DNA of 6,579 bases, taken from contig CAADGV010000035.1 in the NCBI GenBank assembly GCA_900696645.1, forward strand, positions 1 to 6,579, given 5' to 3'. Source of the DNA: an uncultured Chlorobiota bacterium. GTDB lineage: Bacteria > Bacteroidota > Ignavibacteria > UBA10030 > UBA6906. Shown piece by piece: positions 2,204 through 6,502 of the stretch (position 1 is the stretch's first letter; each line of letters begins with the position of its first letter). The notes beneath the pieces were generated by a model, which saw only the letters and a list, made by a program, of their open reading frames with translations, was not told the origin of the DNA and ran no database searches. A program made the position numbers and the translations under genes.

Positions 2204-2635
2204 TCATATCCTGCTAAGTTGCGAGTGCATACCATCAAGTCTACGCCTCCAATCCCCGCCCCAATCAAAGCCCGCTTCTTTGATGCAGGCAATCATCTTT
2301 TGTGAAAGCGTCGGCTCTTGTCCGAGTCCGTTCCATGCGGCGTTCATATCGAAAGCAATTCCCCAACTGTGTAGAGAGGGGGCAAACGTGAATCCTCGTT
2401 GCTTCCTCACATTGAAACACCCGTCCCATGTTCTAATCTCATGCCCGATACCTTCACGGTGTACTGCCATGAGAAAAGTTGTGAACGGCTGAACCATGTC
2501 TTTGTTCATGTAAATTCTCTTTGGGATTGCCCCAAGTTGTAATTGTTCGGGTACATGGTAGAGGGTCATCCACTTGCGTTCAAACTGCTCGTCGGGTTCG
2601 CCATATTTTCGGTATGCGTCTTTATGGGTTGTCAT
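2204..2635 (-). CDS. Endolysin, M15 family zinc peptidase (VanY/Ply500-like)
   Basis: This 143-residue protein is predicted to cleave peptide cross-bridges or stem peptides of host peptidoglycan at the end of infection. The M15 zinc signature is visible: SLHSWGIAFDMN supplies H89 and D96 in the classic H-x6-D spacing, and DGMHSQL supplies D134 and H137 in the D-x-x-H arrangement that holds the third zinc ligand and the catalytic acid in this family. The usual Phe after the second His is a Ser here. The protein is nearly all catalytic domain, with no signal peptide and no evident cell-wall-binding domain, so a holin would have to release it. The start is well supported by GGAGG at 2643-2647, 7 bases upstream. 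Its ATG overlaps the preceding 58-aa gene as ATGA. The lysis-gene neighbourhood supports an endolysin over a D-Ala-D-Ala resistance enzyme. Confidence 0.9.
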   Translation of the reverse strand: MTTHKDAYRKYGEPDEQFERKWMTLYHVPEQLQLGAIPKRIYMNKDMVQPFTTFLMAVHREGIGHEIRTWDGCFNVRKQRGFTFAPSLHSWGIAFDMNAAWNGLGQEPTLSQKMIACIKEAGFDWGGDWRRRLDGMHSQLSRI

Positions 2636-3715: not shown

Positions 3716-4402
3716 CTAATTGATCTTCCATTCAAAGTTTATCCCGTAGTTGTCTTTCAGAAGCGTGTGAAATCCCGCGTTGGGTATTATCCTGACACCC
3801 GACACGTTGAACGGAATCATTACACTCATTCCGCCGTTGATTGCCTTGATGTCCTTGAATCGTGTGTGCAATGCCCCGCCGAGAACAATCCCCTCCCAGA
3901 ACGGCGTTTGCGCCACAGTAATAACTACCGTGTCTCTCGGAAGTGCCTTCAATTCAAATGCACGCGGGTTGTACTCTACAATCGTCATATCGTCCAACGG
4001 ATAGTGAATCCCGTAGGCGTTGATGCCGAACCTGAAGTATTCGTTCTCGAAATCAAATCCTACCGTATCATAGAACAGTTTTTCAAATGCAAGTTTCTCG
4101 ATGAATTTCTTGAGTTCTTCTTTCTCCAACTGCATTGCATTTATCACTACTTCCGTTGCATTTGTCGTCGGGCGCGGGGTCACGGGAACGATGTTTTTCA
4201 CTCTCTCCGCTTCACGGCGCACATCCTCAAGAAGATGTTCAGCCATGCGCCCCCTCCACCTGTTCTCTACCACACTCAGACTGTCCAAGTAACGAATCTC
4301 TGCTTCGCTATATCCAAGCGACTTGACGTGTCCGTACAGAAAATATGCACCGATTGCAAGAGCGACCGCAAGCCCAAACCATAACCATGTTGTCAGTTTC
4401 AT
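3716..4402 (-). CDS. Membrane-anchored protein with helical stalk and beta-rich C-terminal domain (228 aa)
   Basis: This is not a family I recognise. Residues 5-24 are a clear membrane helix (WLWFGLAVALAIGAYFLYG) just after MKLTT, acting as an uncleaved anchor. Residues about 32-72 form a charged helix, 73-80 a Pro/Thr hinge (VPVTPRPTT), and 84-112 a second charged helix. From about 114 to the end the sequence turns beta-rich, with alternating aromatic and glycine residues (GIVLGGALHTRFKDI, GINFEWKIN). The body should lie in the periplasm. GGAG at 4410-4413, 7 bases upstream, supports the start, which overlaps the preceding 39-aa gene as ATGA. The anchor-stalk-globular layout beside lysis genes would suit an unusual spanin-like protein or an envelope-associated factor. 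This is inference only. Confidence 0.8.
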   Translation of the reverse strand: MKLTTWLWFGLAVALAIGAYFLYGHVKSLGYSEAEIRYLDSLSVVENRWRGRMAEHLLEDVRREAERVKNIVPVTPRPTTNATEVVINAMQLEKEELKKFIEKLAFEKLFYDTVGFDFENEYFRFGINAYGIHYPLDDMTIVEYNPRAFELKALPRDTVVITVAQTPFWEGIVLGGALHTRFKDIKAINGGMSVMIPFNVSGVRIIPNAGFHTLLKDNYGINFEWKIN

Positions 4403-4518
4403 TTCACTGCTCCGGGACGCGGGGGGTCGGGAATGTTCATGACACCGCTTGCAAGAGCACAGTCAATAAGAAAGTTGACCGCAAAAACGATAGCAAGGAG
4501 TACAAGCAACCGTTTCAT
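4399..4518 (-). CDS. 39-aa exported peptide with proline-rich tail (possible o-spanin-like)
   Basis: This very small gene was found by reading the gap between two longer ones. The product starts MKRLLVLLAIVFAVNFLID, a textbook n-region plus hydrophobic core. C20 and an ALA motif (residues 21-23) follow, then a short tail, SGVMNIPDPPRPGAVK. Signal peptidase I could cleave after ALA. Alternatively C20 could be lipidated, but LID-C is a poor lipobox because Asp precedes the Cys. Rz1-type outer-membrane spanins are likewise tiny, exported and proline-rich, which is why I raise the possibility. GGAGG at 4524-4528 lies 5 bases before the ATG. Both ends are ATGA overlaps: with the 134-aa gene upstream and the 228-aa gene downstream. 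The strong ribosome-binding site and the double coupling make the gene credible despite its length. Confidence 0.65.
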   Translation of the reverse strand: MKRLLVLLAIVFAVNFLIDCALASGVMNIPDPPRPGAVK

Positions 4519-5369: not shown

Positions 5370-5540
5370 CTACGCCCTTAATCTTTTCTTTTTGATTACT
5401 TGAATGACGAACAGCACCACGAGAACTATCACGTCAAGCACAAGCCCGATCCAAAACGTGCTCGGTTGACCCGTGCCTTTAGCCCAAAACCAAAAGGCAA
5501 GGGTGATTACGATTATCAATATCAGTCCGGCTATCCACAT
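5370..5540 (-). CDS. Small two-span membrane protein (56 aa), alternative holin candidate
   Basis: This gene was found by direct reading between 5542 and 5370. It encodes 56 residues with two hydrophobic helices, about 2-19 (WIAGLILIIVITLAFWFW) and 29-48 (FWIGLVLDVIVLVVLFVIQV), joined by a short turn (AKGTGQPST) and ending in a basic tail (KKKRLRA). Size, two spans and a basic C-terminus resemble class II holins, but many small phage membrane proteins look alike. The start has no clear Shine-Dalgarno. It lies one base after a TAA at 5542-5544 that ends the shifted frame of the gene upstream, so it may be translated by coupling. The stop is followed after one base by the GTG of the 149-aa protein. 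Confidence 0.7.
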   Translation of the reverse strand: MWIAGLILIIVITLAFWFWAKGTGQPSTFWIGLVLDVIVLVVLFVIQVIKKKRLRA

Positions 5541-5541
5541 A

Positions 5542-6403
5542 TTACTCGCTGCACCCTAATGGATGTTCTGGTATGTTGGGATAAATCCTTAACTCAAACC
5601 ATGTTGCGTAGAGTTGCATTATTCCGTCGGCAAGCTCCGGTGTACTGTTGTATGTTAATATCAACGCCTCCCCATACCGCGTTTCTCGTGTTGCTGTTGT
5701 TCCACCATCGCCCCCCCATCGCCATCAGATAATATGAACATTTGTTTTCGGTATCGTCAAACAAAAGACGATATCCCCCCACACCCGTTCTCACCCACCT
5801 CGCATTGGTAAGCGTATTTACAAGTATATTCGGTATCGGAGCCGCAAGGTCTGTGAGTTCACTCCCCTCAGTCCAAACGGTTGGTGTTGTGCCCGTCGCA
5901 TAAAATTCTACGTCGAGTTCGTTGCTCGATGCTCCCACGTTGGTGAAGTCGTCCGAGTTTACTGCCGTAATCGTGAATGCCGCATCCGTGTTGCCAGCAT
6001 CAATCGTAATCACATCGTCAACGGTGTAGCCCTCCCCAGCATCAACTATCTCTACAACGGTCACAATGCCGTCAACGGCGGTAACTGAAACGGTAAGTCC
6101 CGTTCCGGTTCCGCCCGTGGTATTTACAGGACTTGCGGTTGTGTAGCCCGTCCCGCCATCGGTCAAGTTGATTGTTGCTGTTACTCCACCCACGTAGTCC
6201 GTAATCTTGTAAAGCGCGCCGATGGTTAGCTCTCCACTCGTCTGTGTGGAAGTCCCATCACCAGACTGGTATAACTGCGCTACATACTGTTTGTACGGGA
6301 CTCCGCCGCCTGATGAAGTAAAACCTATCTGTCCGAACGCCGCCGATGCGAGAAGCATCAACACGCCAGCACTTTTCAGTACCTTGGTTGTGAATCGTTT
6401 CAT
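5542..6403 (-). CDS. Exported glycine-rich virion-type repeat protein, frame broken at a G7 run
   Basis: The start at 6403 has AAAGGAG 9 bases upstream and encodes a signal peptide (KRFTTKVLK, hydrophobic core, SAAFG then Q25). Residues about 80-145 hold two glycine-rich beta units (DGGTGYTTA with TGGTGTGLT; DAGEGYTVDDVITI), a repeat common in phage tail and baseplate proteins. SDDFTNVGASSN and YATGTTPTVWTEGSEL (about 150-182) form another recurrent phage virion module. Read straight, the frame stops at 5594 (269 aa) after an unconvincing basic tail (CRRNNATLRNMV). Past the seven G at 5711-5717, the frame reached by +1 or -2 reads DGGTTATRETRYGEALILTY and on to PNIPEHPLGCSE, ending at 5542 one base before the next gene. 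I therefore take 5542 as the intended end (about 286 aa). A Sec signal on virion-like domains is unusual. Confidence 0.75.
5711..5717 (-). other. Seven-G run at the frame change
   Basis: On the coding strand ATG GGG GGG CGA TGG is the point where the incoming frame (ending CSYYLMAMGG) and the more protein-like outgoing frame (GDGGTTATRE) meet. Losing one G, a +1 slip or a -2 slip would each join them. The outgoing frame has a stop (TGA) just upstream of the run, so it cannot be an independent gene reaching further up. Confidence 0.7.
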
Positions 6404-6502
6404 CTTGATTTTCTCCTTTGTTTTGAATAACCATTCCCCGCCGAAAATACCTATCGTCAGCGGTAACACAATTATCAACGCCATAAAGCCTGTCAGAGTC
6501 AT
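6404..6502 (-). other. In-frame membrane segment: N-terminal extension or small gene lacking its own stop
   Basis: From an ATG at 6500-6502, which overlaps the previous stop as ATGA, 33 codons read MTLTGFMALIIVLPLTIGIF and then a charged tail KTKEKIK, running without a stop into the next ATG at 6403. The piece looks like a complete one-span membrane peptide with a basic end. It could be a real N-terminal extension (a 302-aa product if read straight), an alternative start, or a separate tiny gene whose stop was lost. In the +1 frame the tail would read KQRRKSR and stop at an ATGA with the 6403 start, so a second small indel is possible. Confidence 0.4.
6413..6419 (-). promoter_or_regulatory. 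Ribosome-binding site for the exported repeat protein
   Basis: AAAGGAG on the minus strand lies 9 bases before the ATG at 6401-6403. It favours the signal-peptide start over the in-frame ATG at 6502, whose support is the ATGA overlap with the gene upstream. Confidence 0.65.

Follow-up and report, generated by a model that had tools for sequence, protein, structure and literature searches.

In phage Mu, the tail assembly chaperone gp41 involves a programmed -2 frameshift (Xu et al. 2004, as cited in PMC2628397), and shifts of the Mu type sit between the major tail gene and the tape-measure gene (PMC2628397). In Helicobacter canadensis, phase variation of C-termini is known at poly-G tracts of 10 or longer, whose length varies among reads (PMC2823697). 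The known phage proteins closest to the one described here are single-frame fibre and structural proteins of Flavobacterium and Olleya phages, for example the tail fiber protein of Olleya phage Harreka_1 (A0A8E4ZEP4), a protein of Flavobacterium phage lotta8-1 (A0A6B9LKI1) and the 'DUF285 domain-containing protein' of the elemo phages. All have the same C-terminal domain as our protein, a likeness found by fold search or, at the sequence level, via a family member. In the Flavobacterium elemo phages, the family gene also lies beside a gene for an M15 peptidase or D-Ala-D-Ala carboxypeptidase, as it does in the operon studied here.

The present locus resembles each of these systems in part. Like Mu gp41, it has CGA directly after a run of G and changes frame in the same way, but it is another kind of gene in another location, and its run has seven Gs against five in Mu. 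As in the H. canadensis genes, the G run lies late in the gene and a change in its length swaps the C-terminus; however, the H. canadensis tracts are longer and vary in reads, whereas the seven Gs here are read from an assembly alone. Unlike the Flavobacterium and Olleya fibre proteins, the protein is split between two frames, and it adds a repeat insert and a 12-residue extension past the family ending.

The DNA analysed (hereafter, the window) is an entire contig (C35) of 6,579 bases in a 46-contig, 4.2-Mb genome assembly. Its main genes are all on the minus strand and tightly packed: neighbours overlap or are separated by no more than 26 bases, the gap after the fibre-tip gene apart (Table 1). 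The fibre-tip gene is the first complete gene of this row; its ATG (6403-6401) is preceded by AAAGGAG, and its N-terminus resembles a signal peptide. In its initial frame (frame A), the gene ends at TGA 5596-5594; from there to the next ATG at 5540 there are 53 bases (5593-5541), more than in any other gap of the row. The frame reached by a +1 or -2 change (frame B) is open from 5721 and stops one base short of that next gene. Both frames cross the run of seven Gs, with GGGGGGCGA at 5716-5708. The coordinates given in the original prediction, its 53-base gap, the close fit of the shifted frame against the next gene and the equivalence of a -2 and a +1 slip all hold on recheck. For the small gene at 4399-4518, an internal ATG was picked as the start. 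Immediately upstream of the fibre-tip gene, positions 6403-6502 of the minus strand encode a hydrophobic peptide (MTLTGFMALIIVLPLTIGIFGGEWLF...) whose start at 6502 forms an ATGA overlap and which reads through into the fibre-tip gene in the same frame with no intervening stop; this peptide may represent either an extended N-terminus of the fibre-tip gene or a small membrane protein whose own stop is missing.

Table 1. Features of the window around the frame break and in the neighbouring operon.
Feature	Position	Strand	Evidence or remarks
Fibre-tip family gene	5542..6403	-	Frame A encodes the head (6403-5597), frame B the homologous tail (5721-5545); ribosome-binding site, start, homology of both halves
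G7 run, top-scoring frame-change site	5711..5717	-	Profile 35.4 bits, highest among all points 5722-5596
Frame A continuation past the run: 37-residue non-homologous tail and TGA	5594..5710	-	No better than shuffles on the family profile; low model confidence
Frame B tail, conserved ending FELRIYP and TAA (5544-5542)	5542..5721	-	Profile score reached by 0/5000 and 0/3000 shuffles; two strands at pLDDT ~80
Family motif Y-K-x-Y-x-A-x-L-x-Q-S-G	6261..6295	-	Pattern matches >120 viral contigs
Next operon gene, small membrane protein	5370..5540	-	Start one base past the frame B stop
M15 peptidase endolysin	2204..2635	-	Pfam PF13539; synteny in L068, L123, L245 and L258

No useful match came from direct searches with the whole protein or with each of the two tails, because exact peptide seeds fail at the distance that separates the window sequence from its relatives; weak matches within the bacterial class were rejected as chance, and the neighbouring genes, used as queries in the same way, found no related phages. 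Relatives were recovered from viral contigs using YKQYVAQLYQSG, a stretch close to the mature N-terminus, which was made into a degenerate DNA pattern and matched at least 120 stretches. No further copy turned up when 391 genomes of the class were searched by pattern. The open reading frames so identified have a common domain: YKxYxALLTQ[ST]G, ENTLG, W...G.Y and F..KT, followed by a hypervariable stretch and then IEIRVYN and a stop. The window protein has the N-terminal motif, the ENTLG/W..G.Y block and a DFTNVG module found in a subset of the family, and its frame A head scores 23.0 bits. It also has the family ending E-[IL]-R-[IV]-Y, not in the frame of the head but only in frame B. Neither Pfam nor PHROGs recognized the family members tested.

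Among 201 viral loci fetched, 182 carry complete copies in a single frame. The others are copies cut by contig ends, chance matches, one copy that ends early in unrelated sequence (L060) and one split copy (L109, reverse strand). In L109, the only other split copy, the frame changes at a T5 stretch, a T-rich site elsewhere in the domain: the protein reads NKTIVFLI followed by a stop, and the remainder continues in another frame through to FEIRIYS. For alignment we used a composite query in which the repeat region was omitted and the tail was set in frame B, and kept the best 80 of 165 loci, many of which also carry the DFTNVG module. The nearest relatives align to query residues 11-170 and thus cross the junction in a single frame, as homologues had been proposed to be compared; 34 invariant columns are common to the window protein and five relatives. 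Relatives of the window's M15 endolysin occur in 11 of 161 family loci, adjoining the family gene in several, and with this endolysin or carboxypeptidase neighbourhood the window gene fits a phage fibre/lysis cluster. The C-terminal beta-rich domain of the window protein is a member of an unnamed family, which phages of Bacteroidota and other hosts carry at tail-fibre tips and within lysis clusters, and an orphan phage gene is now tied to a large fibre-tip-like family that Pfam and PHROGs miss in the members tested. Within this family, L132/L210, L188 and L198 are nearly identical over their first 60 residues, wholly different in their C-terminal halves and alike again in an IEIRVYN-type ending, as expected for exchanged receptor-binding tips.

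Since the composite query contained the frame B tail, the independent test of the tail is a profile from which the window was left out. With an initial 60 sequences, the profile could not locate the shift; one made from 100 family C-termini, our main profile, performed somewhat better. On the latter, the frame A protein scores 25.2 bits versus 35.4 bits when the frame is changed at the G run, the best point tested and the site originally predicted. It should be noted that the profile places the change without sharpness, the next-best point (5617) scoring 34.9 bits and other points 28-35. The frame B tail alone scores 9.9 bits, a value that none of the shuffled sequences reaches, whereas the score of the frame A tail is equalled or exceeded by 544/3000 shuffles (413/5000 with a smaller profile); the proposal that the homologous protein end lies in the shifted frame is thereby borne out. 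Codon statistics favour a frame change weakly, with 3.7 bits for no shift, 8.7 bits for a shift at the run and 12.5 bits for a shift at 5653, the site they prefer.

We also modelled both versions of the protein with AlphaFold using the same 51 homologues. The model with the frame B tail reaches a pLDDT of 69.7 and a pTM of 0.60, with strands at residues 245-251 and 267-274, against 60.2 and 0.47 for the frame A tail. A fold search with the frame B model retrieves segments of structural and tail fibre proteins of phages over ~90 columns at 2.3-4 Å, and nearly all of these fibre matches are gone with the frame A model; no good match to the model was found among solved structures. The homologues in the alignment share the frame B ending, which explains part of this contrast, so that the structures are supporting rather than independent evidence. 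Taken together, the profile, codon usage, AlphaFold and fold search show that frame B holds the true end of the domain. Both halves of the gene are homologous to the family, and the frame is broken between them; that the break lies inside the G run is what we infer from the profile optimum.

Given that about 180 relatives read in one frame, a one-letter change or a sequencing slip is the likeliest cause of the break in the window, which appears to be accidental rather than programmed. We consider it probable that the G tract has undergone a change in length outside any programme, either a real slippage mutation or an assembly homopolymer miscall. According to this model, the product would be an exported or virion-attached phage protein whose relatives read a C-terminal beta-rich domain in one frame; the G run, in the middle of that domain, would stand +1 (or -2) out of phase with the remainder, and ordinary translation would therefore drop the last strands and append an unrelated tail. 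The tract change itself may have arisen by spontaneous slippage in the phage or as a miscall in the assembly. To weigh the latter, we took G/C runs of seven or more from ~830 kb of this genome and judged those with clearly coding flanks on both sides. All 24 runs of seven keep the frame, as do three of four runs of eight; the frame change at the fourth, a G8 run in the host genome (L328), was rejected as an ordinary overlap of two genes. The assembly is therefore not generally wrong at seven Gs, and this counts against a homopolymer miscall as the rule at this length, though coverage may have been lower on the small phage contig. No site nearly identical to that of the window was found in the viral contigs or phages searched, and the lack of a close relative to reveal the ancestral tract length would count somewhat against a tract indel. 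In the assembled sequence the frame change is real, and the form of its intact relatives is now known; if the true tract has a length other than seven, a small annotation correction follows.

Apart from such an accidental length change, the gene could be read with no shift at all, the end of frame A being the true C-terminus or frame B a separate small gene. Frame A codon scores do stay positive for ~20 codons past the run, and in frame B a TTG follows shortly after GGGGAGG. However, frame B alone contains the family ending, which is part of one domain with the frame A head, the model with the frame A tail is poor, and a homologue with a tail like that of frame A, CRRNNATLRNMV, was looked for without success, the relatives ending in IEIRVYN; we regard a reading without any shift as extremely improbable. 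A switch in the phage population, in which slippage of the G run toggles the fibre tip between complete and truncated forms, is less remote, albeit still doubtful. The run lies within a hypervariable, receptor-binding-like domain, C-terminal poly-G tracts have a precedent in H. canadensis (PMC2823697), and a C8 run breaks a DNA methyltransferase gene in the same genome. On the other hand, seven Gs are short compared with these precedent tracts and with the ~9-10 or more expected of a poly-G phase-variable gene, this genome has many runs of seven, which keep the frame inside genes, and no relative has a G run at that place. If the run does vary in the phage population, it would act as a switch in host binding.

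The original prediction had also raised a programmed +1 or -2 ribosomal frameshift at GGGGGGCGA, like that of the Mu tail assembly genes. CGA directly follows the G run, the relative frame matches the -2 shift of Mu, and Mu gp41 holds a similar CGG GGG CGA at its end. This string has a run of five Gs (NC_000929), so that the Mu string named in the original prediction, though present in the window, is not exactly that of Mu. Furthermore, the nonamer occurs in 17/200 shuffles of the window and is weak evidence by itself, CGA makes up 12% of host Arg codons and so is not a rare codon there, and no stable stimulatory RNA structure was found downstream of the run (z -0.8). The gene is not a tail-assembly chaperone: it lies in a lysis/fibre cluster, with small membrane and lysis genes and no tape-measure gene downstream. 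In contrast to chaperones of the Mu/lambda type, its relatives have no second frame; with 182 one-frame copies and one other copy split at a different site, the two-frame layout is not a family trait. A programmed shift of the Mu type is thus not supported and is very unlikely, as is a lineage-specific +1/-2 shift at G7-CGA that, in a gene other than the tail chaperones where such shifts are known, would yield two fibre-tip forms at a constant ratio.

A second frame break at a G/C run was observed elsewhere in the assembly, on contig C29 (G000:C29, L038; ~10776-10783, minus strand). There, the DPPY motif of an N6/N4 DNA methyltransferase contains a run of eight Cs, and it is precisely at this run that the frame changes; the downstream piece matches PF01555 with an E-value of 1.8e-34. 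DNA methyltransferases are a classic phase-variable class, and this C8 break is possibly phase-variable or possibly a miscall.
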